DNA from: Syncephalastrum monosporum B8922
Taxonomy: Eukaryota; Mucoromycota; Mucoromycetes; Mucorales; Syncephalastraceae
DNA length: 64,000 bases
Reading direction: 5' to 3'
NCBI GenBank assembly: GCA_000697355.1
Contig: JNEN01000817.1
Location: forward strand, 113,531-177,530
The first letter of the stretch is position 1, and every line of letters begins with the position of its first letter. The notes below the pieces were generated by a model. It ran no database searches and was not told where the DNA came from. It saw nothing but the letters and a program-made list of their open reading frames with translations. The translations under genes were made by a program, and so were the position numbers. Positions 16,282 through 63,600 of the stretch are shown here, piece by piece.

Positions 16282-18303
16282 TTAAGCGCGACTCTGGCGA
16301 GCAAAGGCGAGGTCAGTTTCTTCCAGTTGTTGCATAAAACTAAATATAAAAAATTCCGTTAGCTCAATGGTTTACAAGCGCAGTACACGCTTCTCACCTT
16401 GTGGAGTTGTGGATGCAGGTACCGCCCAGAACAATGCGCGCACCAGGCACGGTGGCATTCAGTTGAGCAATGTACCGCGCCTCTTCAAAAGTCGTGCCAC
16501 CGACCATAAAGACGATGATATCTTGCGGCCTAAATGTAATACAACAAATAGAAAATGAAAACGTAAGCGAACGTAAATTATATCAGCCTGTCTCTCATAC
16601 CTCTCGCGCTGGTATTGACCTCCTTCAACGAATGGGTAGGAAGTGTCCTTGAGCCGTGCCTTGATGAGCAAATCGAGTGTCTCGGCTAGGAGAGGCGTGT
16701 GCTGGGTATAAACATTTTCGACGCCCTTCAAGCCCTTGAGCGCATTACGACCACGTGACAAGAAAGTCTGGTTGGAGAAGAGATCGCCTTGGCGCTGTTG
16801 CGCGCCCGCATAAGCCAGAATCGCTGGCACAAGCTGTCATGCCTGTCATTACACACCCTTTCCATTCTTTTTTTCGCAATTCTTACCGCGCTCTTTTTCT
16901 CAGGGACACCGACGCGATCGAGGAGGCTTATCAGAGACTTGATGGCATTGTTGGGCATGCGCTCATAACGGAGTGCATAGAGAAGCACGAGGCGTACTTT
17001 GGCATCTTCTGAAATTTGAGGGTTTTCGATCATCGTCTGGACATTTTTGAGATCGCTATTATGGTTCTCGTTGCAGGCCAGGCCTTGCTCTTGCTCACTG
17101 ATTTCGAGGAGGTGCTCGCTCGATACACGTCGACTGAGTTCGCTCACCAGTGCGACGTGCTTGGACACATTGCCGGACAGCTTGCGGAATTCAGGGTATT
17201 CCTCGACAAAGCGTTTCATGTCTGCGATGGACTCGATGTTCATGTTGGACTTTGTCTTTGACTGATATTCGTCCACGTATTGCTTGATGGTAGCGCCGAG
17301 ATCACCGAGGTTGAGATACATGGATTTCTTGAAGAAGGGATCTTGGTCTGGGGAAAGGACGATCTCCTTGAGCTCGTTGCGCACATCAGGGACATGCGAC
17401 AGATCGACACGGCCATGATGGATACCGATGAGCTCGTGGACCATGGCCTGATAGGTCCACTGTGTCAAGAGAGGTGTCACGGGATCGTTGCGGCGGTCGA
17501 GGATGAGCAGCACTGGAGGCGTGTCAGGGCGCCGAAAGTCAAAGAGCTGGCCCTCTCTTTGGATGTTTTGCTTTACAAGACAGGTGAGTGCTACCTTGTC
17601 ACGAGGCATCGCGACTGACATACCTGGAGTTCATAGGCTAAACGTTTCGCGACCGTACTGCCTGCTGCATAGCGGATGGCGGGCTTCTTTTTGAGACTGA
17701 GGAGGACAGACGAGAGGCCATGGATGGCTTGTTCGTACGCAGACGAGTCGATGAGGAGGTCTTTCATGCCAAGTGAAAACAAGTCGGGGTTGATGGCCAG
17801 ATAGTCGCCAAAATACTCTTGCACTTCTCGCACCACTTCGTGTTCATCCACTTCTGCGAGGCGTTCCAGGTCTGCTTTGGGCAGCGTGTTGCTAAAGTCT
17901 ACAAGTAAACGGCATGTAAGATAGAGAACATCGCAAGTGTATTTTGATGGTCCAGGCACGTGCATAAATAGTAGTCGCCATATGCAGGATCGCGCAATTC
18001 ATCAATGAGGTAGCGAATGGTTTCGGGGGTCGGTCGAAGGAAACAAAGACACTTGAGGTGCTTCATTTTGTCACGATTTCTGTTGTCTATCCGGTCAATG
18101 AGGTAGCACTCCTTGGTCAGCAGCGATGACTGAGTGGTCACAAGGGACACAACCGGCGTCTACAAAACACTTAGCGGCCTATTCGCGTCAACGTGTGGAG
18201 AAGGAGTATGTACCGTCTCAGTGTCAAGCAAAAGAGCCTTCATGCCGGGCACATCCTGCATCATTTTGTCGACATAATGATGGACAGCTTTGATCACGTC
18301 CAT
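16282..18303 (-). CDS. VPS45: Vps45, Sec1/Munc18-family vesicle-fusion regulator
   Basis: SM protein that binds Tlg2/syntaxin-16-type SNAREs for Golgi-to-endosome traffic. Seven exons (18214-18303, 17964-18159, 17624-17898, 16887-17570, 16601-16833, 16398-16529, 16282-16339) encode 555 residues, close to other Vps45 proteins. The match is clear along the length: N-terminal [116 protein letters not shown] and [11 protein letters not shown]. All other introns are GT-AG. Intron 2 (17899-17963) is best read as GC-AG because this preserves the conserved ...YFSN... segment. The nearest GT donor with a shifted acceptor would keep frame but delete that segment. Confidence 0.93.
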
Positions 18304-18513
18304 GGCTGAGTTCACAATTCCTGAAAGAAGTGTCGCAGAAAGTGGGCAAATTTGGATTTTGGATTCTATCTTTGATATGGAATAAAAAGTAAAAAGTAAC
18401 AATTTTGTTTGCGTATATTACAAGGAAGGCGATGGTAAAAAAAAAGAAAAGAAAAGAAAAAGAAAAAGAAAAAGAAAGAAAGAGAAGAAAAGGCAAGGGC
18501 GTTTGTACAGTGC

Positions 18514-21447
18514 TTAGGAGCTAGAATCGACATGGGTGGTGTCAAAGGTGGTGGTGGTAGAAAGAGACTTGCCCTTTTCATGTGCCTTGGCAGCCAGCTT
18601 GGACTGACCCCAGGCGTTCTCGCTCGACGATTGGCGCAGGGTCTCGGGCAGCTTGACGGGTATCCGGCTGGTCTTCTTGGTGATATATTGCTCCCTCCGA
18701 TCATCCGGTGGAGTGGGTGGCATCTTGGACGGGTCGTCAAAGACGTGCACTGCCTTGCTAAAGCTTCGGGAAGGGGTTGGTATCGCTGACTTTTTGTGTG
18801 TGGGTAACGTGGTGTCGTTGTTCCCAATAGACGCGAGGCCGGCACGCTGCTCTTCTTCACCACTGGGAAGAGGCGTCTTTGCTTCTGCTACTATAGGGCT
18901 TCGACTGTTGTTGCTGCCGCTGCCGCTGCTGTTGCTCGACACGCTGCCCGTCGGTGACGGCTCCTTCGTGAGATCATCCAGCGCGGAAGGCGTGCTCCCC
19001 CGACGATCCGATTTCGCCAGTGGCGTGGGCGACTGCATGTAGGTCTCAGGCGATGTATTGCCACCCGAGCTCTGCAGCGATGTACGCCGTGACGCCGGCA
19101 GGGGCGAGACACGGCCCGCGCGCGTGCTGGATGGGATCGTGGTCAGCTCGCTCTTGGTCTGACGCATGGCCGTGCGTAGGCGCACATCAGGAGACACGCT
19201 ACCCGTCCGTCGTGTACCGGTTGCAGTGGGCGACGCGACCTTGGGCTTCAGTCGATCGCGCGACGTGGTGGGCGAGGGCGTCTGGATGGACAAATTCGAC
19301 GCGAGGCCCTCAGCTGATCGACGGACACGGAGATGCGAAGCAGACGTTGATGGTGAAGGTGTTCCGTCAAAGGCCGTCTTGGCTCGATTGGGAGGCAGAG
19401 GACGCACGGAAGAGGTCGAAGTCGATGTGATGGGCATCGGTGAAGCTTCACTAGTGCGGCTCTTGCCCGCGTAGGAGGCGGGCCGGCTCTTGGTGGTAGG
19501 ACGGCCTTCCTTGGCTTGGTCGAGGAAACCAAAAAAGGTCTGGTTTGCAGCCCGGTCGGCGATCTCGTCGCGCAAGACGTCCAGGTAGCGCTTGCCGTCA
19601 TGGAAGAAGTAACGGCCCAGGGCACGCTCAAATTCAACTACGGCATCCCAAAGAGCATCGTCCAGCGAGAGCAGAGTCGGGAAGCACGTCTTGCGCCAAC
19701 GCTCTTCTTCGTTCAGACGGAAACTCGAACCCTTAAGACGGTTCGGGTCGGACGCTGTCTTTTCAAAATCAATCATCTTTTGGATCAGTTCCTTCCGCTT
19801 GTTCATGAGCCGTGAAACTTTTTTGCTGTACGGCTGCATGCGCTTCAAGAATTCCATATGCTCAGTCACCATGCGTTCCACTTCATCCATCGTGTCTGCT
19901 TTGTCATGGAGTCTCGCCATAAAATCAGCACGTTCCTCTTGTGTCAAGAGAGCCGCGTCCCAGAGGTGCTCTAATTTCTCGCGCGACTGCGTAGGTCGAC
20001 GGGTAAGTACTCAGTGGCCGCTAACCGGTGGTCTTACCTTATCAATGTATTCGTCCGTCATCCTGCTCACGATAACCTTGGCTTTATCAAACTCGTGTTC
20101 CAGCTGCAACTGACATCAGTAAAAGCTAGAAAGAGGTCTATTAGACGCTCCTACCTTTTCCAGATTGGCGTGACGTAAGGATGCATGAATAGTACAGCGG
20201 TGGGAGGGTGGCACCTTTGTGTTCTCCCAAAGATTTTCAATGCTGGCGACATAACGTCGGTAGCGAGCGGTGCGGGTGTCATAGTCTTTTTCAAGTTCGG
20301 CCGCCAAGTCGTGAAGCGCTGTGACGTTCTCGTGGGTGAGTCGTAGGGGCTCTGGCAAGCCCGGACGATAATAGATAAAGGTGTGCTTGCTCGACAGGTG
20401 TTTCGAAGGCTTGGCATCAATGTGTGTCGATGCGGGCGGCAGGTCATCGCACAGTCGAGCCAGCTCGAGCTGCAGCGGTTGGGAAGTGTCGGGTTGTACG
20501 TCGAGGACGGTCCAGAAATAGTGAATGGCGCGAGCGGCCAACTCAAATGCAGCTTGACGGCAAGTCTAAAAGAGTGCAACGTTCGTTTTTGTACTTGACA
20601 TCAAATGAGCTGCCGACTTACGTGCGTCTGGCGCAGATCCCGCAAGGCGCAGCTAATGTCTTGAACGGTGCCCCAACATAGGTCCGAGTCGTATTCCTGT
20701 ACAGAACATGCAAGTGTAAAATGTGAGCAACACGCGATACGCTCTACGAATATAAATATTGCTGCACGTCTACCTTGTAATGGCGGAAACAGTAAGGTTG
20801 GCCGAGTTCGGCCGCCAGCCATTTGATCTGCGAGAGCCACTTCTTGACCAGCTTGCGTCGTTCGCGTACCTCCTGCCATATTCATCCATTCAAATATTGA
20901 ACTGTATGTAAGCATTCCTGCGGCATGATTCTTATTATCAGTATTCTTGTCATGATGCATACATTCAGCAGTCGAGAGTCCAAGGACCTGAGGGCTTTCA
21001 GGCGAGAGAAGGTGGGTACGGGCGGGCAGTTGGCCAGATCGTTGTATTCCTCGCCTCCCGGAAAGAGACCAGAACCAAACATGTTGGCCATCGCCACGCC
21101 CAGGATTCGACATGCCCGTTCGATACTGTTCTGTATTCATCATATAAGACTTGTCTTAGCTAAACGGTCCATGCTGGAGTAGAGTGGGATTATTAGAGCA
21201 CTCGTACCAAAACGTCTTCGATATCAGCGGTCAATATCCGGCGTTCAAATTCTTCGTGGGCTAGGAGTCGGTCCATTTCATACAAAACGTGCTATTGGGT
21301 ATGAGCAAAGGAAATAAAGAATAAACCGGAAGAGGAAGAATTTATATGGATACTGGGCTATACCTTGAGCATGGGAGGCTCGATGGGCATTTCCATGGAG
21401 GCACAGAGGGCATTAAGTTTTGCAATTTTGGAGTGAAGAAGCTCCAT
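18514..21447 (-). CDS. ASE1: Ase1/PRC1/MAP65-family microtubule bundler
   Basis: Predicted antiparallel microtubule cross-linker of the spindle midzone. Eight exons (21364-21447, 21208-21291, 20963-21130, 20774-20872, 20622-20696, 20155-20565, 20038-20109, 18514-19986) join in phase to 821 residues. The N-terminal half is coiled-coil (rod). The microtubule-binding spectrin-like domain begins at about residue 332 with SREKLEHLWDAALLTQEERA. It contains the family block FEKTASDPNRL and later RYFFHDGKRYLDVL, equivalent to the FNGQKF region of PRC1. The remaining 350 residues are Ser/Thr/Pro- and Arg-rich and disordered, with several S/T-P sites suited to CDK control. Length is within the range for fungal Ase1. 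A 3' A/G-rich tract (18438-18484) lies just beyond the stop. Confidence 0.88.
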
Positions 21448-23787
21448 TTGTGATGGATGGACGGAGAGGAAGGATGGAAGAAGGGGGGGGCAAAGCGTAG
21501 GTTGGGTCGGCACCAAAAAGTCAAAAGGGCAACAGCTCAAATGGCGCTGGAAAGACTTCTATTATTATTACAATTAAAGTCGTGACTGCACATATGAGAG
21601 CTCGAACACTATCCTCTTGCCTTACTCTCTCGTTCTCACACACACTCACTCGCACCCTCTGCCTGTGCCTGTGCCTGTGTTCGTGCCTGTGTCCGTGCTC
21701 ATATCTGTACCTGTGTCTATGTCTGTGTCTGTGTTTTTCGGTCTCCTCTACGTTACTCATAAAGGTAGTGCTGTCAACAAATACCTAGTTATAAATACAT
21801 GTTTCACACCATGTCATGCGTCTTATCGCACCATCCTAATCTAATACATGCTACCTCAAAACGTAGAGTCGTGTCACCCAGACCATGTGTCCGTGCTCCC
21901 TTCCACCCCCATTTTACTATTCCCGTTTCTTACAGCGCTTGGACCATCTCTTTTCATTCTTCACTCTACTACAATCAATTTGAGTATCTCTTCTCTCCTT
22001 TCAGTTGTCTTGCCTGTTCTTTTGCTCTTCGAATTTCTTTTTGCTCTTACATCGTACCTGGACCCCGCATAGCCCCCTTAACGTGGACTCGTCTCTATGC
22101 GCATAGTCATTCAATGCGTCCCATTACGCACACAGCATTCGGTTGTATATAAACAAAGCTGCACATCCTTACTTTTGGCGTTTTGGTCTTGTCATTTCTT
22201 TCTGCAAGCAAAATCAGTCATTATCATAGAATGACAGGTCAGGATAGACATACTCCTACTGTAGCCCTGCAAAGCCCCTGTCTCCGTTTGCTTTTTTTTT
22301 TTTTCTTCTTCTTTTTTGGCTCTGACAAGACAAGACCAAGGAAGTAAAAGTAGGCTATTTTACTACGATTGGCTCGCTGTGTGTAGCAAACAACTGCTAG
22401 CATGACCAAGCAGTTGATTTGTTAATACAGGCATTGTCGACATAGGTACGTGTAATTTGTTGTTACAAGTCGAGGTAGATTACTCATATGTGATATCGAA
22501 GGACGCTGATGGTTTCAACGTTGCCGCCATTTTTTTGTTTTCATTTTAAATTTTTTCCAGTTTTTGCAGTCCTTTTGTGTCACAGGACCATGCTCTTCTG
22601 GGTAAGATACAGTACACATCGATTGAGCACCATCAGTCTGATTAAGAAGACAAACTATACAGACAACATATGCCTAGATGATTTATCATTTCATTTGTAA
22701 TTGTTCTGTTACTGAAGGGCTCTATTCCGAGAAAATTCCCCAGTTATGTAGAGTTCCAAATGCTGGCGATTCTGACTTTGTGGAAACAATGCAGTCGTGT
22801 TTACAATACATCGCCTTGTATAGCGGGCTTACATGGAAGGTTGCATTATAAGGATGGTGATATCCTACTGCTTTTCTACCACGCGCCGCTAGATCTCACC
22901 TGTATGAACAGAACGAGTACATGACAGATATATATACACCCCCGTCTAGGCACGCGTACGTCCAACAGGTCAACCAGAGGTTTTAATGATAAAAATGAGG
23001 TGGATTGCCTCTGGTATGAGCAGACAGAGCAGACAGTTCGAGCACAGTCGACGATGCAGGCGGTGATTGAAGATCGAGAAGCTTTCGATACCTGAACAAT
23101 GAAACAAAAGAAACAGAGTTCCTCCAGAATGTGGTCAGGCCAAACGACAAGACGGAAGGATATTTGCGTTCTGACTCGTTACTGGGAAACGTGGGCCTCT
23201 CACTAACATACGAGACCTAACATTGAGCCCCAGAACACTGACCACTCATGTCGTTCTTGCTTTTCTTTTCGAAAGTTCGTATCTAATAATATCTCTCGGC
23301 AATCCTCTTGGATGCAAGCATCATATACATTGCTTGGCATGAATAATGCCACCTTTGACAACACGCCCTGATAGAACAATCTTTATAAACAATTAAGGAA
23401 AATAAATTCTAAGTAGCTTATGCTAAACTAGTGGTGAACAAATGCATGGACATGAGGTTTTTGCATCCTTTACATTGAAACTTAACTCAAATTTACCTGC
23501 GCTGCATAACCTCTGACAACCCATTGCCCAACTACAGTAATATTTTTGTGCGATGACGCTGTGCACCTTCACCTAGTATGAGGGGTTCTGTTTGCTGAAA
23601 ATGTAGATAGTAATAAAATAGCAGAGGCAGACGTGAGTTGTAACAAGAAAACTGATTTATTCTGTTGTAGGGATATTAATATAAAACTGCAAATTTTTTT
23701 TTTTTTGGTTTTCGATTAACTCTGTGCAGTTGATATTCTGTGATTCGCTGTGTCTGTACTGCTATCTGTGCTGTTGTTGCTTGTCAC
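21448..23787. other. Long intergenic region between ASE1 and the RFX gene
   Basis: 2.3 kb with no supportable gene. Positions 21662-21735 carry a degenerate hexamer repeat of the CTGTGC/CTGTGT type. C/T-rich tracts lie at 21870-22060 and T-runs at 22290-22310. Positions 23012-23035 contain a short GAGCAGACA direct repeat. Confidence 0.5.
21662..21735. repeat. Degenerate CTGTGC/CTGTGT hexamer repeat
   Basis: About twelve imperfect hexamer units in the upstream region of ASE1. Likely a simple-sequence tract with no coding role. Confidence 0.7.
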
Positions 23788-26342
23788 CTAATCCAAGTCA
23801 TAGAAGCGATTGCCTGACGAGTCTGGTGGGGTTTCAAGAGCGGAGACGGTTTTGCCGTGGGCTACACCGGGATCAGGCCCTGCCGCTGAGGCCTCGCGTC
23901 TTTCACCATGGCTTTGCTCTGCGAGTGAGACCTTTGCGAGCTTCTGCTCGAGGACCCATTGCATGTAAAGGTCAGTGAAGCGGATCAGATTGCGGAAAGC
24001 TTCTGCATATGATATGAGCATGGCGTTAGACTATAGCAGCATCACAGGTCCCTGGACTTACCCAGGTTCTCGGCCATGGATGACGCAAGCGCATCGAGAA
24101 CAAGAGACGTATAGTACTTCCACTGAAGCATTAGCCTTTGTGTGTTGCGGAAGACGCCGCGCGCATTTGTAGAGTGCTATAAGTGTAGTTCAGCAACGAG
24201 TTTTGAGCCGTCGTTTAGGACACACAATACGTACGCTATTAAAGTCAATATGGACTCTAGCAATGCCTTCGATCCAGGTTTTCCATTGGTTAACACCTCC
24301 GGGTATTCTTAGAAGCTGCAGAACGTCTTGATAAACTATTACAAGCTGTCAATGCTTTCATATGGTTCTAACATGCAAAGACTCACGATGGGAATGGACG
24401 GCGACCATTGGGCATGAAGCGACCCAGAGCGCTTGATCTGTCACGTCTTGCAAATTGGCTTGTTTCCATTCATTCTCCATTTTCGCCAACATATGTGCGT
24501 CTTGCAGATAAGAATCCACGATAACAGTGAGACGGCTCAGATTTAGCTCACGCCGTAGCTTAACCGAGAAAATGCGAGCAGCTGTGCAGTGATCGTTTTA
24601 TGGTTGTGAACGTTAGTAATGAAAATGCCTCAGTAGAGCGTGAAGTTTTTAACTGACCATCTGTCTTTACAGAAACAAGTTGCTGAGGGTAATCATGAAG
24701 TGAACTTCCAATATAACGCTCCAAATGAGTCGCGAGGCTGCTAAGATCGTCGGCAAAAGTGGCTGACGGTTTGCAGGTCGAAACATACTCGAGTATCGCC
24801 TAAATAAGTCATGGTCAGGCTTAATAGAACTTTCTTCCATTGTCTATTTTTCTCGTTTACTCACATCATAGAGAGCACAATCCCACCGCCACAAGCAGTC
24901 TATCACCTCAGGGTAACGGGCAATCATGCTGCGCCGTATTTCGGGTCGCAGACTTTCACCGTAAAAGGTCGATATACATTGATAGATCTATGGTCATGTA
25001 GTCTATAAGCTCTCCGGGTAGCATATTAATACCATATACCTACCGAGGTAACGTTGTGGTGCTTCAAAAGGGACAATACTTCACCACAGTGGTCTTGACA
25101 TGCCACTCTGAGATCGTCAAGCAAGCGGAGTAGGTGTCTTTCATACTCTTGCAGAAGCCTGCCATCCAAGGTCATAGGCGTTTCAAATGTGAACACTCGG
25201 TCGCTCGTGGACGGGTGGGGCGTGACGACAGCTATAGGAAGTATTAGTAAAGTATAACTTCAGGTATAGCACTTGAAATGGATTATGTCCAATGTGATAC
25301 CTTGGTAGTCAAGGGGTCGCTGCGACTGTGGCAATACCATCCCAAGTGAGTGCGCGTAGGTGTCATAGTATGAGCGATGATCCAGCGCCGAGACATTGGG
25401 TGGAGTGACCGTCACTTGTTGATAACTGGGACGCATTCGTTCAGATGAATACGGGCTTGGAAATTGCCTATTATGCGATTGTTAGTATGGTGAGCTATCG
25501 ACCCAGAACAAACAGAAAGAGAGAACGAAGCTTACGATGAAGCATAAAGCATCGGACGGTGCGCCTGTGGTCTTTGCAGCTGGCGCTGTGCACCAGAGTG
25601 AGCGACAGAAGTACCCGATGGGCCTTCTTCAATTGCCAAAGGCTGCTGATTGAGGCGCCGGATTCCGCAGTAATGATATTTGCTTTGACCGCGTGTGCCC
25701 AAGCGCCGTGTGGTGATGTCGGGGAAAACGTGGCGTATGAGCTTGCCAAAGGTCGCCGAGTTCACAGGCTGAATGTTATAGCTTTCACACCACGAGCGGT
25801 AGTGCTCGTACATACCGTTCCGTGGTACGTTGTGGTCGGTCTCGTAATGGTAGTTCTCCCGCACCCTTACGGTGGAAAGTGAGACCTTTTTTATTAGCTC
25901 TACTTGCGACTTTGACTTACCATCGAGTTACCATCTGTCCCGTCTCATTTTCAGCCGCCACCATGCGTGTGCGTCCTCGACCGCGGGTTTGACTTCGTGG
26001 CGCGACGAGTTGTCTCGATCTGGGCACTGATGTCAGCGTGGGAGGAAGTGTCAGCATGGGCCGCGGCTCCTGAACCTCAAGAGTAGGTGGCACTCTGACA
26101 GGGATGGTCAGTTGTTGCTGCTGTGCGTGCTGATGATATGACACAGACATGCTCTCGTGAGAGGTATGTTGTGGCATGAGCCTCGTCGACTTTCTGGGTG
26201 GTGCTAAGGCGCGACTGTCGTCCGGGTTCAGATTGTTGTCTGTCCCACACGCTTGGTTGCTGCTGCCCGCCACTGAGTCGTTGGGTGAGCAAAAGAGGGA
26301 GCCTCGTCTGGACTTTGGGCGGGTCGACTTTACTCTTCCCAT
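23788..26342 (-). CDS. RFX-family transcription factor
   Basis: Winged-helix DNA-binding regulator related to fungal Crt1/Rfx1 and Sak1, known for control of DNA-damage and cell-cycle genes. Ten exons (25921-26342, 25536-25865, 25301-25467, 25044-25231, 24865-24987, 24658-24799, 24387-24581, 24235-24335, 24062-24176, 23788-24002) encode 665 residues, all joints in phase. The RFX domain is formed across intron 1: [14 protein letters not shown], then the diagnostic [20 protein letters not shown], and [16 protein letters not shown] basic N-terminus ([13 protein letters not shown]) precedes it, and a poly-Gln/Pro linker is present. The C-terminal half is helical and matches the extended conserved region of RFX proteins used for dimerisation and repression. 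The class is certain; target genes are not. Confidence 0.92.
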
Positions 26343-29312: not shown

Positions 29313-29959
29313 GGTAGAAAGACCTGCACAAATTCAAATCAAGTCTGGCTCTATTGTATAAAAAGATTTCCTGGGACTCAGGCGACACGAGCATCCTGCT
29401 TTTCTTTTTGTCTCACTTGCACACTAAAGGTCCGACAGGAAGCTTGTTCCAGTGGAGCACTTTGTTCTTTTTTCGTTTTTTTTTTCTTTTCTTGTAAACC
29501 TACTTCCTGGATGGTAGCTTACGTTCCGTACCTTCTCCTTACAACCAGGAGATGTAATTCCAGAAAGATAATCACGCGTGCGCGTGCGTATGTGCTTATA
29601 GAATCTCATTTATCCTCAGAACAATCGCATTTGGAGGTAAATACCAACGATAAATAGAGCTAATATAAAGTATAAAGGTTGAGAGAAGCATAGTCACGCA
29701 ACCTTGCAGGGTTATGCATCAAAAGAAACCCATGTGATCACATGCAGCTTGCTCATTCAGGCGCGGTAATGTTTGGCGATCAAGATCGTAAATGCAGGTA
29801 CCAGCAGATCTGTTAGAATTCAGACCAAATTTGAAAATGGGAAACTTTTGGTGTCAAGGGCCAAGGAGAACGAGCGTTTTCATTAGAAAAATGTGAGGGA
29901 CGTTTTGTTTTTACAACTTGCACACTATTAATAAAAAAGTATGGCGTCTAAACATTGGA

Positions 29960-29994
<35 letters not shown>

Positions 29995-30685: not shown

Positions 30686-30737
<52 letters not shown>

Positions 30738-35264: not shown

Positions 35265-37911
35265 ATGTTCCAGTACCTCATTGCTGTCTGGGACTATACG
35301 GCCGAGGGTGACTTTGAGCTCTCTTTCAAGCAAGGCGATAGAATAAAACTCCTCGAGAAACACAATGACGACTGGTAAGCGACTCCATCACAATTTTTAC
35401 ACTGCATATTACCTTACATACTCACCCATGTCCACCTTGACAACAAATAAAGGTGGGAAGGTACACCTCTGAATGGATACTTTACGCGGACACATTAACT
35501 CATGAACTGACTCAATGAAGGCGAATTGAACGACGAGATTGGTTTCTTCCCTGTGAATCGAATTCGTCTCGAGGAAGAAGCACCGAAACCAGCAGGGCAT
35601 GGTTCTTCTGACGCGAACAGCACGGCATCCGCACCAGCACCTGAAATTGAGCCTGTGTCCGTGGTCTCTTCGTCTGACCCGCCGGGGCCTGCTGCCCTCA
35701 CCCACAAGCACAAGCACAGCGCACCTGCTGCATACGACCTGACCGAAGATACAAAGCACGACTACAATGACAATGGCATTGACATTGACTACGGCAAACC
35801 TCCTCAGTTGCCTCCGAGGAATCTCAAAGATGCACCTCCTTCGAGAAACGATATGCCGGCTGGGTGGCAGCATGCCTATGGTCCGTCTTCCACGTCCAAT
35901 CTGCTTATCGGTAACCCTTCTTCCTATTATATATAGATGATGAAGGTACTATCTATTACTTCAACGAACACACCGGCGAATCACGATGGGACAAGCCGAC
36001 CGAAGAGGATATCGCGCAAACCCTGGATAGCATGAATATTACTTCACCTCCTATGCCTCATAGCGAATCCATCGACTCTGAAGAAATGGCAGAGGGGCTG
36101 ACCACTCTCAACCCCGCTGATATGCAGAAATTGGTACAACCTCCCATACCGACGTCTTTTTCCCTTCTTCTTTTTCTGACTCATTCTGTCAACTAGCAAC
36201 TCGACCAACTCCATCCGTCCTGGATACGCCAGCAGGGCTTTGTACAGATGAAAATGAAGGCAGAAAAGGACGATGGAGGCAAACTGAGCTCATGGAAGCT
36301 CTATTATGCCGTTCTCTCCAAAGGATTCTTACTGCTATACAAGGACAGCTACTCCAAAACAAAGGTGAAGTCTTCTTTGGGTTGCATCATGGAAGAAAGC
36401 TAAAGCACAGCTTATCTAGAAATACGCCAAGCCGCTCCTCCCTGTAGGCAGTTTCGACCTCGACGCCTGCCAAATCGAACCCGCTGGCAAGCACGATACC
36501 AGACGCAAGCATAGCTTCCTCATTACCACCGCAAAGAAGGTCACTATTTATATCCAGACTTCGAGTGAGAAAGAACTCGCCGCCTGGCTTGATGCCATCA
36601 TGCGCGAGCTCGTCGCTCGAAAAGAAAATCCACAAGAGGTAAATTAAGCACGGATCGTCGAAGTATGTCCATACTGAGTTCTATCGTAGGACACCGGCAA
36701 GTCAAACCTTGCTTCTTAAAGGAAGATAACCCAACTAATTTGGATATGTGCAGATATTTTAAGACTGCTCAAAATGCTGACGTCCGACTCGGACCAGATG
36801 AAAGTCAATCGGAAGATCCTAAAGAAGACGGCTCCGACGAAAGGTGAGCGAGACTCACCTCCCGTTGTTTTTTTTTTCTCTTCACTAGGCTGACTTTATA
36901 CCTTACCATGTTGTGTAGACGGCGATGACAAGGATGGCGGAAAGCCAAAAAAACGCGGTCATTGGTTCAACAAACCAGGCAAAGCCGATCCTTTGCCAGC
37001 ACGGCCCATAGCTGGAACTCACAACCAACCTGTCGCTGGTAAACTATACGGGGAAAAAAATGTACCACGCTGGACACTAACATTGATATGCTCATTTAGG
37101 AGACGACAGTCTTTTTGGTGGCTATTTGCATATGGAGTCAGATGGAAGTATACCCCGTGTCGTCCGATTATGTGTTGAAGAAGTCGAGGCAAGAGGTAGG
37201 CATGAGTAAATGCTCGAGCTTGATCCAAATGTACAGAGTGCTTACAATGCGCACGTTTTCTGATAGGCCTGACTTCCGTCGGTATTTATAGACTGTCTGG
37301 ACCAGCATCGACCATACAGAAATACAGGGCCGCCTTCAATCGCAGTAAGTCCTTATTTTGCTTTGCTTGGTATTTTTCTCTGATTTCACCACGGAGCAGA
37401 CGAGAACGTGTCCTTTGCGGATGAAGCAGACATCAATGTCGCCACCGGGCTTCTGAAGCTCTATTTTCGCGAACTCAAAAACCCGCTACTTACACATGAA
37501 TACTATGACTGGTTTATTGATGCAGCACGTGAGTAGAAATGGACAATGAGACTTATCGTCTTCACCTATTGAACAAAATTCGTTCTAGGGATACCCGATT
37601 ATGATGAGCGCATGTTCCGCATCAAGTCCATCATTCATGTCTTGCCCAAACCGAATTTTGTCGTGCTCGAATATCTCGCCCGCCATCTTAATAATGTGAT
37701 GCAGCACAGCGAAACCAACAAGATGGAAGCGTCCAATCTCGCGCTGATCTTTTCGGTAGGCCTTTTACGGGGACCTCAAGAAGATCTGAGCAGTATTATG
37801 CACACCGACCTGCAGAGCAAGGTCATGGAAGCCATTATCCAGCAGGTCGATTGGTTTTTTGAGATGGACGAGGACGAGGAGGAGCGTGAGGAGCTCACAG
37901 CCGAGCAATAA
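35265..37911 (+). CDS. SH3-WW-PH-RhoGAP protein
   Basis: GTPase-activating protein for Rho/Cdc42-type GTPases with the domain order of animal ARHGAP9/12/15/27. Thirteen exons (35265-35374, 35453-35460, 35521-35880, 35937-36133, 36197-36364, 36420-36638, 36690-36696, 36754-36843, 36919-37038, 37100-37195, 37267-37344, 37400-37528, 37589-37911) encode 634 residues. SH3 at residues 1-60 (LIAVWDYTAEGDFELSF...GFFPVNRI); WW near 145-178 (GWQHAYDDEGTIYYFN...RWDKP); PH about 232-355 (GFVQMKMK...WLDAIMRELV); RhoGAP about 430-620 with arginine finger GIYRLSG, LLKLYFRELKNPLL and the N-K-M-E-A-S-N-L-A helix. Two micro-exons (8 and 7 bases) are needed to keep frame, and the intron after the second uses a GC donor. 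Confidence 0.88.
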
Positions 37912-50215: not shown

Positions 50216-50303
50216 CTACCTACAACTGCATACAAGTTTAAAATAAAATCATCTAGCATCGTTTCTTTTTGTTATCATCTATCCAAACTAGAAAGATTTT
50301 TGC

Positions 50304-51389
50304 ATGGGCGACGCGCTATTGCGACGAGGTACTGCACCATTTCAGACAACTGAACATCTTTCAGTAACATCACTGCAGATCTTGCTCAGGTTTTGATTGA
50401 CTTCTGCAAGTATTCCATTCTACCATGACATTCCTCAACTAATGTCGTACGGTGTGCATTCGATAGTGAAGACATGGATCCATCAAATTTTGTATCAGCG
50501 CGCCGTCTACCCGCCTGGTAAATAAAGTCATTTGTGGGTGGTGCGAACACGTATTTCATTTCATGCTCACGCGTTTTTCGAAGAGATCTTTGAGCCGCGG
50601 AAAAAATACGACGTACCGATCCATGTCGCAGTCTTCCCTGACTTGGTGAACTACATTGACGAGTTTGTCAAGGCAGTGCACGATCCTCTCATCCACGTAA
50701 GTAAATAAAATATCCAGTCAAGAATGAGCGCATTCACTGTTCATAATATATCGTTAGGGCGACTGCAAGATGGTCGCGCTCACTATCCAGACGCAAGAGC
50801 AACGCACACTCGAGCGTTTCGTGTTTGAGATGGATTCACTTCTTCCGACGGCGCAGGTTCCACCAAAGACTGTTTTGGACAGGTAATCGACTCCACCGAG
50901 GCCACGTATTTCTCGGCGTAACCCTTTGCTCTTGCAGTGGATCCACCGTCGGGCTTGCCGACGTAGAGCAATACCTGCGTGCAGCCCTCCTCCGTATCTG
51001 CGCCTCGCCCACCCTGCTTTCCCCTGTCACTCCCTGTTGCACCTTTTATTTATCTATTGAGACGAAACAAGGCCCACCAGCCGACCAAGGCACGGACGCT
51101 CGTGCACCGAGCCAGGTAAAAAGAAAAATATAAGCAGTAGCGTTATTATCTACTAACCCCTCCTCCCCAGAGCCAGATGGGTGATTGGATACCCTCGCCT
51201 GATCAGGCGACCTATGCGAAGTTGATCCCATTGCAGACTATACCAGCTGATGCTTTCAAGGTAAGTCCAGGAACAACTGCATTCTGATATCTAAGCAGAT
51301 ATGTACAGATCAATACATATGTGATGGAGGCTGTGAAGAAAGGCAAGGGCAAGCAGACAGCCGCCACTTCAGCACCACACGAGAGATAA
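50304..51389 (+). CDS. REV7: Rev7/MAD2L2, HORMA-domain subunit of DNA polymerase zeta
   Basis: Adaptor of translesion polymerase zeta; HORMA proteins close a safety belt around a partner peptide such as Rev3. Eight exons (50304-50328, 50379-50405, 50467-50517, 50584-50696, 50758-50882, 50938-51115, 51171-51260, 51309-51389) encode 229 residues, close to human REV7 (211). Recognised blocks: DLAQVLIDFLKTWIHQILYQ then RAVYPPEIFEPRKKYDVPIH, FPDLVNYIDEFVKAV, TLERFVFEMD, VEQYLRAALLRI, CCTFYLSIET, and the C-terminal YAKLIPLQTIPADAFKINTYV safety-belt region. Intron 2 (50406-50466) must begin GC (T|GCAAGT) to give the F-L-K helix; any GT donor breaks the frame. The first exon is short and its start less certain. 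Confidence 0.85.
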
Positions 51390-51653
51390 ATTGCGTACTT
51401 TTTCATTATATAACACTGTGATATTTACAATGCACAAGAGGCTGTGGGGAAGGAAGGAGAGGGGTGTGGTATGGGTGTGTGAATCGAGTATGTGACGAAA
51501 GGGAGGATGATGTTTTAACGTGAGTCCTTGTGTGTGTGTGTATGTGACTCTGTGCGTGTACGGATGATGAAGGATGTTGTGTTTGATATGTATGCTGTTC
51601 TCTCTCTTTTTCGTTTTCGTTTCTAGTCGTTCCGCATTGTGATGGTCTGTTGT
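51390..51653. other. Convergent spacer REV7 / Mdm31-32
   Basis: Contains GT-rich sequence (51470-51560) and TATATAACACTGTGATA after the REV7 stop. No gene seen. Confidence 0.5.
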
Positions 51654-54482: not shown

Positions 54483-56636
54483 TTATTCACCATCGATAGT
54501 CTGCAAAGGACCTTTGTATGTCTTGCGCCCAAATGCATACCAAAAGACCGTAGCAAATAGAACAGTGGCACCCAGCATCAGGCAAGACCAGTTCATCGTT
54601 TCTGGAGCGACAGGATTCACGGACGGGAAGCAGAGAATAATGCTGAAGAAGATGATCCATAGCACGGCGACGCAGTTGATGGGAATGCTCCACTTTCCAA
54701 GATTGAAAGGTCCCTTCATATTTTCCAATAGCAATGAGTTGGGGTCAATGTCGACGAGATAAAATGAAGATATACCTTCGCCATGTCATGGCGCTTCCAT
54801 ATCAGGCGGCAGAAATAGGGCATACCGTATGCGATGTTGACGGCGATCACGGCAGTGCTCATAATAGCAGACCAGTAAACAGAACTACCAAAAGACTTGA
54901 AAAACGCGAGCGTTAATACCAAACGCAACAGAAGGGTGTGATTATTAAAGTTACCGGCATAATGACAATGGTACAGATAACGGCCTGAAGGATCAGGATG
55001 CGCAATGGGATCTTGCGGTCGCCGTGCAGCTTGTACCAGAACTTGGCAAAGGGAATACATTCGTCTCTGGCCATGGACCAAATCATTTGGGCTGAAGCAA
55101 GCATTGAGTTACATAGAGAGCCAAACTGGGTCACCATTAAGATGACAAGGAAAAAGGCGGTCAGGGATTGATTGGTGGAACGCAAAAAGAGCGTGGCAAC
55201 TGGCATTGTGGAAGTCTGGAGCTCCTCGACGTCCTGGATCGAAAATAGAGTGGCAATACAAAGAACAATACCCTGCAGAATGGCTCCGAGGACGGATATG
55301 ATAATGCCGCGCGGTCCAGTGACGTCTGCGCGCTTCGTACCCTCGGCAATCTGAGCACTGAGATAAAGTTTGTGAGGGATATATCATAGTCATCTACCGC
55401 CGACATACCCGCATTCATAACCAATAAGGGTCCATCCTGCCTGCAGCAGACCCAAGAGGAAAGCAAGGCCCGAGTTCTGGTAACCAGTGGTGTTGGTAAA
55501 CGCTGTAAACACCCACTTTGCAGAGGGATGCGTCGGCGACATAACTGTTGATATCAGTTGCATGAGTTCACAGACGAACAAATGACATAAATATTGCATC
55601 TCAATACGTACCTGGCATACAGATAACCACAATGATGGTGCCAATGGTGACCCATATTACTGAAAATAAAAGTCATATCAATATATCCATTTGTTGCTCA
55701 AGCTGGATTCGCTTGCGTGTGCCTTCTTACCCATAAATTTGTTGAGGTAAGCTGAAAACTTGAGACCGAGGTAGTTATATGCTACACCAACTATCAGAAA
55801 CAGGATGTAGAGACCGACATTGGCGCCTTGGTTTTCAATTTGGTTCTCGTTCAGAACATTAGCAATAGCTATGCATATCGGATAACGTGTCAGTTTAGCA
55901 TAAAAAAGAAATATGAAGCTAGTATTCTTACCTATGACGTACTCGCCCATGCTGTAGGCAAGGGTCATCGTGGCTGACAACAGACCAGCAACAAAGACAT
56001 AACCACATAACCATGCCATGACTGTGATAGATAGAATTAGATGGAGTTCTTCACAATAAAGAAGCGTGGTTGGCATGCATACCAGGTCCCCATTCTGGAC
56101 TGCTTAGCAAGTAGCACCAGGAATAAACACCTCCATTCACAGGATACGCTAGGGTGTCACATTTCAGTTTACATTATGTCTATAAGGTATTTTACTTTTA
56201 TGAAACCAACCTGAAAATACCTCGGCCATGCCGAGAGCGATACACATGATGAATGGAGAGACGCAAACGAAGCCCCAAAACAGCGACATGGGCCCGCCCG
56301 AAGCCATGGTGCCACCAAATCCGACAAGCCTGTAGGGTGATGGATGAATATTTGCTCACGTAGTAGACAATATAATATGGAAATACCAATTTGGCAAGAC
56401 GGCCATGGTAGAAAACGAAAAACCGGCCTGTACAAACAAGCTGATCTCACGATTGAATTCCTGTTTGTAACCGAGCTCTTGAAGTCGTTGGGCATCATAG
56501 TCTGTTGTCTCCGAATCGGTCGAGTGGGATCCCTTTTCGTCCGCGTACGTTACTGATGCTTTTTCGTCCTATTGAGAATAATCTCATCAGGCATTGCATT
56601 CATCACGAGCATATGTACACTACGGACCTTGGACAT
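54483..56636 (-). CDS. APC-family amino-acid/choline/GABA permease
   Basis: Plasma-membrane or vacuolar transporter of the amino acid-polyamine-choline family, most like the fungal Uga4/Hnm1 group. About eleven exons encode about 513 residues with twelve hydrophobic segments. The first exon is only nine bases (ATG TCC AAG, 56628-56636). It joins exon 2 (56397-56578), which ends in AGFSFSTMAVLPNW, and then GFGGTMASGGPMSLFWGFV, the conserved first helices. Further matches: ALGMAE and AYPVNGGVYSWCYLLSSPEW (the family's MAE-(I/V)-x-S-x-Y-P-x-x-G-G motif), AGWTLIGYECGAQIAEGTKRA, QMIWSMARDECIPFAKFW, and KGPFNLGKWSIPIN near the end. The last ends at TAA 54483-54485. Substrate cannot be fixed; the motif set favours GABA, choline or polyamine over general amino acids. 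Confidence 0.88.
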
Positions 56637-57579
56637 TATCAAAGTCAATATGCTAGAAAGAAGAAAGAAATGAAAGATCAGAGTACGAGAGCGATAGGAA
56701 GGCGCTTTATATGGCAAGACTACTGTCGCATTAATGCGTTGTCGTCCGTCGAGAAAATTAGGGAAAGGTATGGACACCCTATCACACCCTTCTTCGTATC
56801 GTGCGTATTCCTCTTCTTTCCCGATAAAGTACCAGTAGCGTACGGATGTTTTATTTTCCAAAAGATAATAGTGACAGAGTCAAATGAGAGATAAAACGAC
56901 AAAGTGATAAGCATTTTGGTGACTTTGGTGGGTTGCACAAAAAGACCGATATCATTCTTTTCCCTTGCATAACTTATTTATCTCACTTGTCTTTCTCTAA
57001 TCATTATCTTGCACTATTCTTGATGAACCTACCGATAGCCATCTCGAACATAAACAGGGTCTGATTACTATTCTAAAATCTTACTGGGCAGGGGATTAAC
57101 CTTGTTATACATCTTTTTCTTTTTCTCGCGATCGTTTTCGTCATTATTCACTGGCTAAAATGCGGCGTCCACTTCGTTGGTTCGCAACGCAATGTCTTTT
57201 AAAGTTCCTCTATGTATAAGGACTTATCGTAGCCCGGTCTGAGCCGAATGATTAGTTTACTATGTATGAAGGACACAAAGGAACTTACGTTTGTGCTGTG
57301 TCTGCTAGTTTTACGGTGACAATGATCAACTTTGTTTCCAACACAAAAGAGACATATAGGTACGCAGAAGAAGTGCAAGATATGGCACCCGTTTTGCAGG
57401 TACCATATGGATGTTAAGAACGCGATATATATATATGCTAGATATCTTTATACACTTGATTTATTCGCGTATTCGCAGAAATGCAAGAAAAGAAAAAGGT
57501 AGAGCAAAGCGGATTATAGAGCACGCGAGATCAAAGGGTTTGTAATTCTGTACAGCAATGGAGTATATAGGATGTGGCT
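56637..57579. other. Spacer upstream of the permease
   Basis: About 940 bases holding the permease promoter and the 3' flank of the next gene. Open frames seen here on both strands are short and without content. Confidence 0.45.
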
Positions 57580-57640
57580 TCAATGAGCGCCTTGACGTTG
57601 AGGCCTGCGTTGCCACGAACGATTCTGATGTTGTCTATTT

Positions 57641-57672
<32 letters not shown>

Positions 57673-59597
57673 TTGGTGGTGTTGGTGGTGGTTATTTTTC
57701 CCGAGACGGTCATTGATTGAGACAGTGTTTGTGGTTGAACGTTTTTGGATAGGCGATGGTGCCTGTATTTGATGGAGGTTGCTTTTGGCAGCACGGCCTG
57801 CGATCGAGAGTCCATTTTTCTTCTGCTGAGGTGCAAGACGGTTGATAGTATCTCCAGTAGGAGAGATCGGGTTGTTGGGTGCGACAGTGGGTGCTATGCT
57901 CTTGATACCTCGCCCTCGAGAGGAAACCATGCTAGGATCACTCGCGGCGTCTATCAGATGTTTCTGCATAAAGTCAATAGTCCTCCGTCCGGGGGATGCG
58001 GGCATCTGTGTCCTGGCTTGGGCTCCTGCCGCGCCTTTGATGGTGAGGCCCCCGCTGGCTGTGTATGCCGTGCGCTTTACAGGCCGGTCTGGGGCGTTCT
58101 CGATCTCTGCAGAACGCTTATGAGCCACGTTAAGAGATTGCTGTTTCTTTTGCACGACGGGAGGAGATTGTTGTTTCTTTTGGGCAACGGGAGGATGTTG
58201 TTGCGTCTTTCGGGCGACGGAAGGATATTGTTGTTTCCTTTGGGCGACAGGAGGATGTTGTTGCATCTTTTGCGCGACGGAAGTAGATTGCTGATTCTTT
58301 TGCACGACGGGAGGAGATTGTTGTCTGTTTTGCGCTTGTCCCTGCCTCTGCTCAAATGGTCAATCCCAATTCCATGCCGAGTTTAGCGAGTCGGCTTACC
58401 TCTTTGGCAAGGCGACGCTCAGCCATCGACTTCAAAACCTTTTCGCGCATTTCTGCGAGTGTTCGCTCTTCTGCAGCTTTATCTTCCGTGGTTTTATCGG
58501 CCACCGGCTTTGGGCTGGGCGGAGTGGGCTTGCGGTTCTTGTTGTTTCCAGGAGCAGAAACATGGCTATAAAGCAAGGTTAGTAAGTGTACGACGCTATA
58601 TATTTCATTGATTATGCTGCTTCAACTGTTTCCGCTCGAGAAAACGGAGAAGGAGGAAAGGGAGGGCTTTCCAGGTTCCGTTGGATGCCAGAAAGCAAGC
58701 GAACGCAAAGAGCAGAAAAGAAACGGAGGCCAAAAGACCTTCCAGCGGTCTTGAAGGCTAACCCGCGACCGATATCCCATGCGCAAGGGAATGCAGCGTG
58801 CTAAAGGATGACACATACTTTGCGGCAGAGATATCGCTTGAAGGCAGAGCAGTTTTGGGTGGAGAGACCTTGGCTCCTGCTGCTGCTGCTGCTGTGGATG
58901 TGGATGTGGATGTGGATGTGGATGTGGATGTGGATGTGGATGTGGCGGCTGCCATTGGTTTTGCCTGAGGCTGTCTGGCTTGCGGTTGGGCCTTCTTCAG
59001 AGGTGCTGAAGCAGGCTTCTTTGCAGACTGTGATGGTGGAGAGGTCGATTTTACAATAGCATTAGTCGCAGGTTTCGCTGCAGGCGGTGCTTGTGCTTGT
59101 CGTTGTGCTTGCTTGGGTGCGGGTGCGGGTGCGGGTACAGGTGCGGGTGACAGTGTGGTTGTGGATGCAGACTTGGTCGCCTGCTTGGGAGACGGTGTGG
59201 GAACGGGTGGTTTAGAAGCGTGTGTGGAGATTGTGAGTGGTGAGATTGTGGGTGGTGTAGGGGTTGCTGAGGGAGCCTCGGAGGCGGGTAAAGTGGTGGG
59301 TTTTTGTTCGGGTTGAGAAGTGGACGGTGTCGCGTTCGCAGCACCAGAGACAGGTTTGGACGCAGAGCCTTCGTTGTTAGACTCAACTTTTGTGGGTGCT
59401 TGTGCGTCGAGGAGAACACGGTCAAGATCAGCTTCAGGATCTTTCAGAAGGGCGTCCAGCTCTTCTTCAGTTAAATCCGGCAAATTGCCAAGATCGATAG
59501 GTTCTCCGAGACCAAGCTCATCGATGCTGTCACTATCGGCCAGCTCAGGGAAGTCTTTCTTGAATTGTGCAAGCTCTTCAGCGGTAAACGAGGACAT
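57580..59597 (-). CDS. Low-complexity protein with 10-residue Q-rich tandem repeats, unknown function
   Basis: Three exons (58819-59597, 58400-58565, 57580-58347) encode 570 residues. I recognise no family. The N-terminus is an acidic helical segment (SSFTAEELAQFKKDFPELAD, then LTEEELDALLKDPEADLDRV). Next comes a long Pro/Ala/Thr/Ser linker with a Thr-Ser run from a GTGGAT hexamer repeat. A charged helix follows (LAEMREKVLKSMAERRLAKE), then seven tandem decapeptides of the type QxPPVAQKKQ (a 30-base repeat, about 58118-58322). The C-terminus has KRTAYTASGGLTIKG, NGLSIAGRAAKSN and SINDRLG, a His/Gln run, and ends in RSWQRRPQRQGAH. The two G-L-(T/S)-I-x-G motifs and Arg-rich end suggest RNA or chromatin contact, but this is inference. 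Confidence 0.7.
57641..57669. repeat. CTG trinucleotide repeat coding for glutamine
   Basis: About nine CTG units on +, read as CAG (Gln) in the unknown low-complexity protein. Confidence 0.85.
58118..58330. repeat. 30-base tandem repeat, about seven copies
   Basis: Encodes seven 10-residue units on the minus strand (QSPPVVQKNQ, QSTSVAQKMQ, QHPPVAQRKQ, QYPSVARKTQ, QHPPVAQKKQ, QSPPVVQKKQ, QSLNVAHK). Confidence 0.85.
58894..58945. repeat. GTGGAT hexamer repeat
   Basis: About eight units next to a CTG run. Read on the minus strand as alternating Thr and Ser codons in the low-complexity protein. Confidence 0.85.
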
Positions 59598-60681
59598 TAG
59601 AAATGTTGTTGAGGGTGAAAAGAAGCACTGGTCAATCACATTGGTGGCCGCAGCCAAATATCTAATTGAATCCCCGCTCTGCTGCGCAAAAGGTTTGTGT
59701 CGTCAATTTTTGTCTGAGGCATCTTGCAAAAATCTATGGCGCGTAACCTTGCTCTTTGCCACTGCCTAGAATTGTTCCATTGGATGTAGTTCAGGCAAGT
59801 AAGTAGGGAGATACACATACAGTTATATCTTCGATATTCCATATACTTCTTTATGTTTAATGCGTGTGAATGGGTGCATTATCCATGACTACATAGTGAT
59901 ATTTCCCATATATACAGACCTAATTGTGCCGTTCCTTGCTGTTCCTTGAACTGTTTCTTTCTCTGTATGGATATCTGCTTTCTTCAACAAAAGACTGCAT
60001 TCACTCCTCATGATATTAGAAACGGTGCTCCGTGAACTTTAGGATCAATAAATGTTCTGTAACTTCAACAACAGCAGCCGCACACCAGTAGCCTCCGAAC
60101 GTGTGACGGCCTTCTCTGTTCGCTGCTTCTTTCTAGTAACACAGGTGTAGGGGGACTATTGATTGAAGAGTCAGCGACTACGTGCTTTGCACTATGCCGT
60201 GACTCGAAAGAAGCTTGGCTTGGCGTTGATGGGTTACAGAAATACAAACGGAAGAGGCCGAAAGGTCGCAACTCAGCTAAATGAGGAGAAGGGCCTAATT
60301 TGGACACTGCCAATCACATGAACGTGCCAGCATGGATCCATATGGAAGACTGGAATTTCTGCCTTCCTATAAGATAATTGCTATTGGGGTACTTCTTCCT
60401 AAGCGAAAGACGATACTAATTTTTCTTCTGATAGTTAGCCTCAGGCATGGTGCTGGATGGAGGGCGTAAGCAGAATCGGGGCTGTCTCTGCTTTGTGTTC
60501 CACGTTGAGCATTCGCGTTTCTGGGTTGCCAAGCGGCGGGCCATCGACTAAATATTGAAACAGCGCGCCTGAAAGAGAAAGGGAAAGAGCGAGACTGAGA
60601 GGAAAGTAGAAAGAGGGTTCTTTTGTTCCATAGACTACAAGTTTTAGCCTGTCCAAGGTCATCACAGCGATCCTCCCAGCC
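59598..60681. other. Bidirectional promoter region, unknown protein / PMT2
   Basis: 1.1 kb between divergent genes with no gene I can support. An open frame at 60065-60313 (-) lacks recognisable content. Confidence 0.45.
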
Positions 60682-63600
60682 ATGACGAGCAGGCATGCAT
60701 TCCAGACGCCTGCCTCTGTCGCTTCCTCTCCTTCACCGCCCGTCGACCACATCGTGCCTGTCGAGAACTATCCCTCGTCCTACACCTCTGCCACCACCCG
60801 ATCCTCCGACGTCTTCCGCCATCGCGTGAAGCGCCCTGCTGACCTTGAAGAAGACGATGTCGACCTCTCGCTGGACTACGACTCCAAAGTCTTGAAAGCA
60901 CGCCAGCGACGGCAATCGTCCGAAGCCGCCGCACGGAAACGCGACTGGCGCATCACCATTGTCTTGACCTTGTGGGCGAGCTACATTCGACTCTGGAAAA
61001 TTTGGCAGCCGAGCTCGGTTGTGTAAGCTCTTTGTCTTTATTTCGCCATGGAAGCATTATTTATTCATTTATGGGGGTTTGCCTAGTTTTGACGAAGTGC
61101 ACTTTGGCGGATTCGCAAGCAAATATATCAAGACACGTTTTTTCATGGACGTGCATCCACCGGTAATACGCACAGAAGAATGCACAGGAATGTTCTAGTT
61201 TACTGACTGTTCAATAGCTTGCTAAAATGCTGATTGCACTCGTCGCTAAATTGGCCGGATTTGACGGCTCATTTGATTTCAAGGATATTGGAAAGTAAGT
61301 AATTCAGGGACGGACAAGCAGACAAAAAGTAAGAGGTACTGAAGGCGATATAAACAGAGATTACATTGAGAATGGGGTACCGTATGTACCCATCCGTGTC
61401 TTTTGCGCTCTGAATGGAATCGTGACTGTACCCATTGCTTATTGGACCCTGCGTTCGTCGGGTCATTCCGTGGCCTCCGCCGTCGTAGCTGCATTGATGG
61501 TGTGCTATGGTAAGACAAGTACACAACGGTATGCAAATAGTATTAACATGGCGTAGAAAATGGGTTGATTACCAACAATCGACACATTCTGCTCGATCCC
61601 ATTCTTTTGTCCTTCACAGCTGCTACCACCCTGATGTGGATCAATTTCCATAATCAGCAACACAAGCGAGTATCCATGATGCGTATTTTCAGTAGTTCAC
61701 TTACACCTGGACAGGCCTTTCCATTTCTGGTGGTACTTTTGGCTCTTTATGACCGGCCTTGGCTTGGGATTGACCGCAAGCTGCAAGTGGGTCGGCCTCT
61801 TTACGATTGCGACTATTGGCGTCTCGACAATCAAAAACTTGTGGGAGATCTGGGGCGATACACGTGTGGACTTGGTAAGGGGAATATGAGGCGAGAATTG
61901 GATGTCCTGCTTACATAAACATCCGGCATTTCTGTAGCACCTTTTTGCTCGGCATTTCGGTGCACGGGCAGTGTGTTTGATCGCCGTGCCGATCACGGTT
62001 TACATGATCATGTTTGGTATCCACTTCCATTCATTGCCTAATAGTGGAGACGGCAACGGGTTTATGTCGCCCGAGTTTCAGCAGACACTCGCCGGACACA
62101 AGCTGGCAGACACACCCATTGACATTGCCTATGGATCCAAGGTCTATATCAGACATATTGCGACACGCGGCGGCTACCTACACTCGCACCCGCATGATTA
62201 TCCGAGTGGAAGCAAACGTAAGGAACTAATAGAGGGAGGTCGGAAAGGAAAAGCTGAAGCTTATGATACTCTAGAGCAACAGGTGACACTGTACCCACAT
62301 CGTGACAACAATAATTGGTGGACGATCTACAAAAAGGACAGTGAGGAACCGACGGAGATCGAGTACGTCAAGCACGGCGACGTAGTGCGTTTGATGCACC
62401 CGGATTCTAACAAGCGCCTGCACTCGCACGATCACCGACCGCCTATGACCGATTTAGACTACCACAACGAGGTCAGCGCGTATGGCTTTCCGGGTTTTGG
62501 GGGCGATGCCAACGACTATTGGCGCGTGGAGATCGTCGACCATGATAAGCATGACCCCGAGTCCAAGGATCGGCTACGGACCTTGCACTCCAAGTTCCGG
62601 CTCGTGCACGTCCTCCAGAACTGCGCCCTGTTCTCGCACGCAGTCAAGCTGCCCGATTGGGGCTGGGGCCAGCAGGAAGTGACATGTATCAAAAACGGCA
62701 AGCTTCCCAAGACCATGTGGTATATTGAATCCACCGAAAATGAAATGCGCAAGTAGACTCTGACAGAAAAAAGAACGAAGACTTAGACTTATATGTTTCC
62801 TATTTTAGTGCCGCCTGACACTGAGCGTGTTAATTATCGTATGCCTGGGTTCCTGTCAAAATTCGTTGAACTCAACAAGGTCATGTGGGATGTTAACAAA
62901 GGCCTAACGGCTTCCCATCCCTATGACAGTCGCCCTGAGGTAAATCAGAGAAGTTTTTTTTATATTTAATTCGTGTGTGGGCTGACCCCAGGATAATCAA
63001 ATCGTAGTCATGGCCCCTCCTGCGACGCGGCATCAACTTTTGGGGAAAGGACCATCGCCATCTTTACCTGCTTGGCAACCCACTCATTTACTGGCTAAGC
63101 ACACTATCAATTGCCACCTATCTCTGCCTAAAGCTGATCTTTTTGCTGCTGGACAAGCGAGGCATCCGTCTGGAGTTTAGTGGTAAAGGAGCTAAAGGGG
63201 AGAAGAAATGAAAAATCGTCAGACTGATTGTTCCCCGAAAATAGGATTGCGGAGGTTTTATGACGAATCGGCGGGGTTCTTTCTCGTGGGATGGGCGTTG
63301 CACTACTTCCCATTTTACCTGATGGGCCGCCAACTTTTCCTGCACCACTACATGCCAGCCCTCTACTTTGCCATTTTGGTGTTTGGTGTCGGTTTCGATC
63401 TAATCACGGTACGACTGGTTTCGAAAAAGCGGATGGTGCTGGCCACTGTCTTGATCATGTCCTGCGTTGCTGTCTATCGCGAATTCATCCCCATTACCTA
63501 CGGCGAGCCATGGACGAAGAACGCGTGCATGCGACACAAATGGCGCTCAACGTGGGATTTCGATTGCGTGCAGTAAGATGAAAAAGAAGAAAATATTATG

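Follow-up and report, generated by a model that had tools for sequence, protein, structure and literature searches.

Do conserved genes of a Mucorales fungus contain introns that begin with GC? The question is raised by a 64,000-nt stretch of the Syncephalastrum monosporum B8922 genome (positions 113,531 to 177,530 of contig JNEN01000817.1, referred to as the window in the rest of the paper), part of a 27,528,251-base assembly of 198 contigs, in which a preliminary description had placed five GC-AG introns in genes coding for VPS45, a RhoGAP protein, REV7 and a protein O-mannosyltransferase. The letters, read directly, confirmed the five donors at the positions claimed, and all five introns have GC at +1 and +2 and AG at their 3′ end. 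For each site, we paired all donor dinucleotides with all AG acceptors whose join stayed open and in frame, and the resulting protein was scored against homologs (one reference sequence for VPS45, one for REV7, two of the four Mucorales proteins tried for the mannosyltransferase, and 31 for RhoGAP). GC took first place at each of the five sites, and also at both of two extra sites outside the window, which lie together in locus L002. This test, which assumes no donor dinucleotide, shows that predicted GC-AG introns occur in conserved housekeeping genes of this member of the Mucorales. We consider it very probable that the five sites are genuine GC-AG introns of the major spliceosome that belong to the NN//GURAG class of 5′ splice sites, the change at +2 being offset by a strong intron-side helix.

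In-frame GT-AG alternatives were available at four of the five sites, and all of them fit the homologs less well than GC. An ab initio gene model, trained with GT donors only on the window and 73 kb of the same genome (293 introns, median length 64 nt, branch site CTNAY), supplied the limits of the VPS45 and RhoGAP genes and the 3′ limit of the REV7-like gene. The VPS45 gene (Sec1/Munc18 family; 16282..18303, minus strand) contains an open reading frame matching Pfam Sec1 with 223 bits, and its GC-spliced model matches Chaetomium Vps45 with 644 bits. At intron 2 (17899..17963, minus strand, 65 nt, TAT/GCACGT...GTAG, with the slash marking the splice site), GC came first of 16 with a score of 209.5 against Chaetomium Vps45, compared to 184.5 for the best GT donor (GTGCCT, 10th), which loses the conserved FS; the join YGDYYL/YFSNTL corresponds to YGEYHLFFSN in Chaetomium. 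The mannosyltransferase gene (60682..63846, plus strand), initially named PMT2, is of the PMT1 type, as its best yeast match is Pmt1 (633 bits, compared to 453 for Pmt2), and its product is 83% identical to Rhizomucor pusillus P0076. GC came first of 16 at its intron 5 (61666..61714, plus strand, 49 nt, CAA/GCGAGT...ACAG), scoring 317 against 236 for the best GT donor (GTGGAT, 13th), which deletes WINFHNQQHK; the join FHNQQH/KPFHFWW has the yeast Pmt2 counterpart FHNQRSKPF. At intron 8 (62749..62808, plus strand, 60 nt, TGC/GCAAGT...TTAG), GC was first among 12 dinucleotide solutions, none of which was an in-frame GT solution, and the join ESTENEM/LPPDTERVNY corresponds to ESTENELLPPDTERVNY in Rhizomucor. 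The REV7-like gene (50304..51389, plus strand, with a putative start) codes for a HORMA-type product that matches MAD2L2, with 66.8 bits at best. At its intron 2 (50406..50466, plus strand, 61 nt, TCT/GCAAGT...ATAG), GC came first of 14 with 40.5, compared to 23.0 for the best GT donor (GTTTTG, 13th), and the join VLIDF/LKTWIHQILY has the human MAD2L2 counterpart VLCEFLEVAVHLILY. The homologs of solved structure, Chaetomium Vps45, yeast Pmt2 and human MAD2L2, are thus all consistent with the joins.

The fifth intron lies in a gene coding for an SH3-WW-PH-RhoGAP protein (35265..37911, plus strand) and follows a 7-nt microexon, GACACCG (36690..36696), which is flanked by a GT-AG intron on one side (36639-36689) and by the 57-nt GC-AG intron 7 on the other (36697..36753, plus strand, CCG/GCAAGT...GCAG). 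The microexon is part of the best two-intron solution and was also picked ab initio. Among 32 one- and two-intron solutions GC ranked first with a score of 166, compared to 151 for the best two-intron GT solution (7th) and 144 for a one-intron GT solution. The conserved block DTDILRLLKMLTSDSDQ requires the GACACCG microexon and then the GC donor. Out of 63 RhoGAP homologs examined, our regular expression picked out 33, and the block is retained in 32 of them. The sole exception is the public Syncephalastrum racemosum protein P0001, which is short of some 17 residues here and reads ARKENSQEMKVNRK, as if an intron spanned from the upstream GT to GACCAG; the hand-spliced RhoGAP model aligns with this protein over 100% of its length at 87% identity. 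The missing block in P0001 is probably an annotation error. Since the microexon alone could cause this failure, P0001 does not prove a GC donor in S. racemosum.

Each of the five GC-AG introns thus restores a conserved block, as had been claimed, in the homology comparison as well as in the test that leaves the donor open. The annotation consequence also held up, as the GT-only ab initio model altered VPS45, RhoGAP and the mannosyltransferase: YFS became CT in VPS45, RhoGAP had three exons downstream of its PH domain in the wrong frame, and the mannosyltransferase lost ten residues at intron 5 and was terminated at intron 8. We also admitted extra donor dinucleotides into this model, one at a time and with a penalty, with or without a requirement on positions +3 to +6. 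When RAGT was required (penalty −2), GC was picked at 7 of the 129 available sites (3 in the window and 4 outside), compared to 8 of 1455 when the remaining 14 dinucleotides were pooled (P = 8×10−5, Fisher's test). When R-N-G-T was required, GC was picked at 14 of 590 sites (5 in the window and 9 outside), compared to 24 of 6591 for the others (P = 8×10−7, Fisher's test). The model with the intron-side filter recovered four of the five donors originally proposed. Outside the window, a gene coding for a Cdc24-like OB-fold replication protein contains the two GC-AG introns of L002 (2668-2721, GAT/GCAAGT, and 2830-2881, AAT/GCAAGT), both of which are supported by homologs other than those of S. 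racemosum. A further candidate in the window, at 29327 on the minus strand (TGT/GCAGGT), is probably false because the GT-only model leaves the N-terminus uninterrupted. Picks at L003 9579, L004 9057, L005 4072 and 9088, L006 8331 and 8527, and L008 5933, together with TAT/GCAAGT in L009 and CCA/GCATGT in L010, were not accepted as confirmed. Genome-wide counts of strict donor-branch-acceptor patterns were discarded, the patterns being too rare and the branch sites too weak.

Several observations weigh against five genuine GC-AG introns. The introns are predicted from sequence comparison. Without the filter on +3 to +6, the ab initio model did not tell GC from other dinucleotides (at a penalty of −4.6, 3 picks for GC and 0 to 4 for the others; at −3.0, 13 for GC, 17 for AA and 15 for GA). 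The GC donor of REV7 intron 2 was not picked, and homology supports two of the nine GC picks outside the window, most of the nine being of low confidence. The enrichment of RAGT at +3 to +6 (6 of 7 homology-supported GC donors compared to 52 of 359 GT introns, P = 8×10−5) speaks for the GC donors and is partly circular for the two from L002, which were found through the R-N-G-T filter. A control of the donor-open test, which counts in favour of the GC reading apart from one call, covered 33 introns out of the 39 modelled in the mannosyltransferase, RhoGAP and Cdc24-like genes, six being skipped because their flanks were short or unaligned. The top solution was the GT donor of the model at 22 introns, its GC donor at 4 and something else at 7; some of these seven probably reflect wrong ab initio exons, and one false GC call arose, at RhoGAP intron 11 (142 compared to 137 for GT). 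Finally, RhoGAP admits a one-intron GT alternative that carries a 7-residue insertion.

RhoGAP, where a microexon is needed as well, is the least certain of the five cases. The site could hold no GC intron at all, with either a single GT-AG intron (36639-36725) that ends in GAAG and adds seven residues or a block-skipping intron as in P0001. The former is in frame, and the latter has a precedent in the published S. racemosum model as well as in the Apophysomyces protein P0006, one of the 30 homologs that did not match the regular expression, which also lacks the block. We regard this as improbable, though less so than the alternatives below, because the GC solution scores higher (166 against 144) and fits 32 homologs without an insertion, and because EDT[DE]ILRLL is found verbatim in P0019. 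That splicing generally uses nearby GT donors, GC being a modelling choice and the proteins carrying small lineage-specific losses or insertions, appears quite unlikely. In-frame GT options do exist at VPS45, mannosyltransferase intron 5, REV7 and RhoGAP; the GT-only model takes them at the first two and follows another GT path, which leaves the conserved frame, at RhoGAP, and the ab initio scores of the two VPS45 versions are nearly equal (163.1 and 163.0). However, every GT option loses or changes residues that are conserved in homologs, mannosyltransferase intron 8 has no GT solution, and the blocks in question are kept in both mannosyltransferase references and in most RhoGAP homologs. Single-base assembly errors that turned GT into GC are very unlikely, as the same T-to-C difference recurs at seven independent sites, six of them in RAGT donors, where random errors would not favour strong intron sides, and the public RhoGAP model of S. 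racemosum goes wrong at the same position.

Other parts of these gene models and of the window yielded observations of a different kind. The proposal for REV7 stood at the GC donor of intron 2. At the proposed intron 1, between 50304 and 50364, no GT donor gives an in-frame link from the ATG at 50304 into exon 2, and the options for the 5′ end that do stay in frame involve either GC dinucleotides or other ATGs with weak GT donors. Intron 7 of the mannosyltransferase gene (AAC/GTAAGG, about 62218-62275) contains no in-frame stop, and a naive open reading frame would retain it as an insertion. Among the mannosyltransferase matches listed, at least 120 in number, S. racemosum is represented only by P0148, at 57% identity; the closest counterpart in that species may be absent or wrongly modelled. 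Another gene codes for a product that aligns over 100% with a further S. racemosum protein, P0196, at 84% identity. An Rfam scan of the 64-kb window returned no matches.

Are such introns unusually frequent in this genome? The preliminary description, counting about 110 modelled introns, had put GC-AG introns at several times the usual frequency. The ab initio model gives 128 GT introns in the window instead, so that the share of GC introns there is 5 of about 133 (3.8%, 95% confidence interval 1.2-8.6%; P(≥5) = 0.02 at a rate of 1.2%), in a window that entered the estimate because it holds five of them. Outside the window, 2 of 117 homology-embedded introns are GC-AG (95% confidence interval 0.2-6.0%; P(≥2) = 0.41). 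These 117 comprise 65 introns in random loci, delimited by Pfam ranges (some drawn by eye for multi-domain matches) or, for the Cdc24-like gene, by a homolog, and 52 introns in eight CCT chaperonin genes; the doubtful L010 pick, which falls inside a counted CCT gene, was excluded from the GC count. Pooling gives 7 of 250 (2.8%, confidence interval 1.1-5.7%; P = 0.03 at 1.2%). In fungi, GT-AG introns average 98.7%, leaving about 1.3% for all other types (PMC7072748). Because the window was selected for its five introns and the rate outside is 2 of 117, a several-fold excess is not established; a raised rate in the lineage is possible.

The composition of the donors bears on how they might be recognised. 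Three of the five window donors read exactly GCAAGT and none has AG at −2 and −1, both as originally described. A purine at +3, A at +4 and G at +5 occur in six of the seven homology-supported GC donors, VPS45 having C at +4. G at −1 is found in one of the seven, compared to 61% of the 359 GT introns sampled inside and outside the window (P = 0.02); against GT introns with AAGT no such difference is seen (P = 0.66). Since the GC donors match the latter at −1, the missing exon-side AG is typical of intron-strong donors in this genome. GT introns themselves show a see-saw, with −1G in 12 of the 41 introns that have AAGT at +3 to +6, as opposed to 98 of 134 among those lacking +5G (P = 7×10−7). 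The U12-type donor is RTATCCTT, which the GC donors do not resemble, and a search for U12 RNA, run without a positive control, gave no match. An altered U1 was rejected as an explanation: a single U1 gene was identified, an ordinary one with the canonical 5′ end AUACUUACCUG. The single U6 copy read, of four, contains ACAGAGA. The tolerance of GC had been ascribed to strong U1 pairing on the intron side. The strong intron side and the weak exon side are borne out. U1 itself is ordinary, GT introns with AAGT mostly lack −1G, and both U1 and the ACAGA box of U6 pair with positions +3 to +6; U1 as the specific cause is therefore one of two readings that sequence cannot separate.

According to two studies, 5′ splice sites fall into an AG//GUNNN class, which relies on U5 loop 1, and an NN//GURAG class, which relies on the U6 ACAGA box, with a see-saw between the two (PMC9803359, PMC11732430). 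Because GT introns show the same see-saw here, the GC donors fit the NN//GURAG class. They would rely on RAGU at +3 to +6 instead of an exon-side AG; this segment could pair first with U1 and subsequently with the ACAGA box of U6, and the T-to-C change at +2 would be tolerated because the remaining intron-side helix is strong. We infer that the introns are spliced in the cell by the major spliceosome, with U1 and U6 pairing at +3 to +6 compensating for the change. More tentatively, the GC donors of this lineage might be confined to the NN//GURAG class and dispense with −1G, the U-to-C change at +2 being licensed, in contrast to human GC sites, by the U6 ACAGA side alone and splicing being specifically dependent on N6-methyladenosine in U6 (METTL16), a proposal that we consider rather doubtful; the genome contains a METTL16-family match (PF05971) in two pieces of 48 and 24.5 bits. 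If GC donors are truly restricted to the U6-pairing class, the division of 5′ splice sites into two classes could naturally be tested on them.

Gene models limited to GT donors miss conserved protein in these genes, and the block at issue in RhoGAP is absent from a public S. racemosum record. Both the kind of intron and its effect on annotation are already known from ascomycetes, and the instance in Mucorales is new. In the one open-access library searched, we found no paper joining GC-AG introns with Mucorales or Mucoromycota, nor one treating GC-AG introns together with U5, U6 and ACAGA. GC-AG introns are reported from euascomycetes, where automated annotation misplaces their boundaries (Rep et al. 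2006, quoted in PMC8703528), and a study of Fusarium notes that Augustus fails to recognise them (PMC5677156). The introns described here resemble those of euascomycetes in their GC donor, AG acceptor and annotation errors, and differ in belonging to Mucorales. With the NN//GURAG class they share, for the most part, strong positions +3 to +5 or +6, a weak exon side and the see-saw, whereas +2 is C and not U at the five sites. The human GC 5′ splice sites, for example that of BRCA2 intron 17, have a consensus with both −1G and +5G (PMC11732430); ours are alike in combining C at +2 with +5G, and unlike in that the −1G of the human sites is present in one of the seven.

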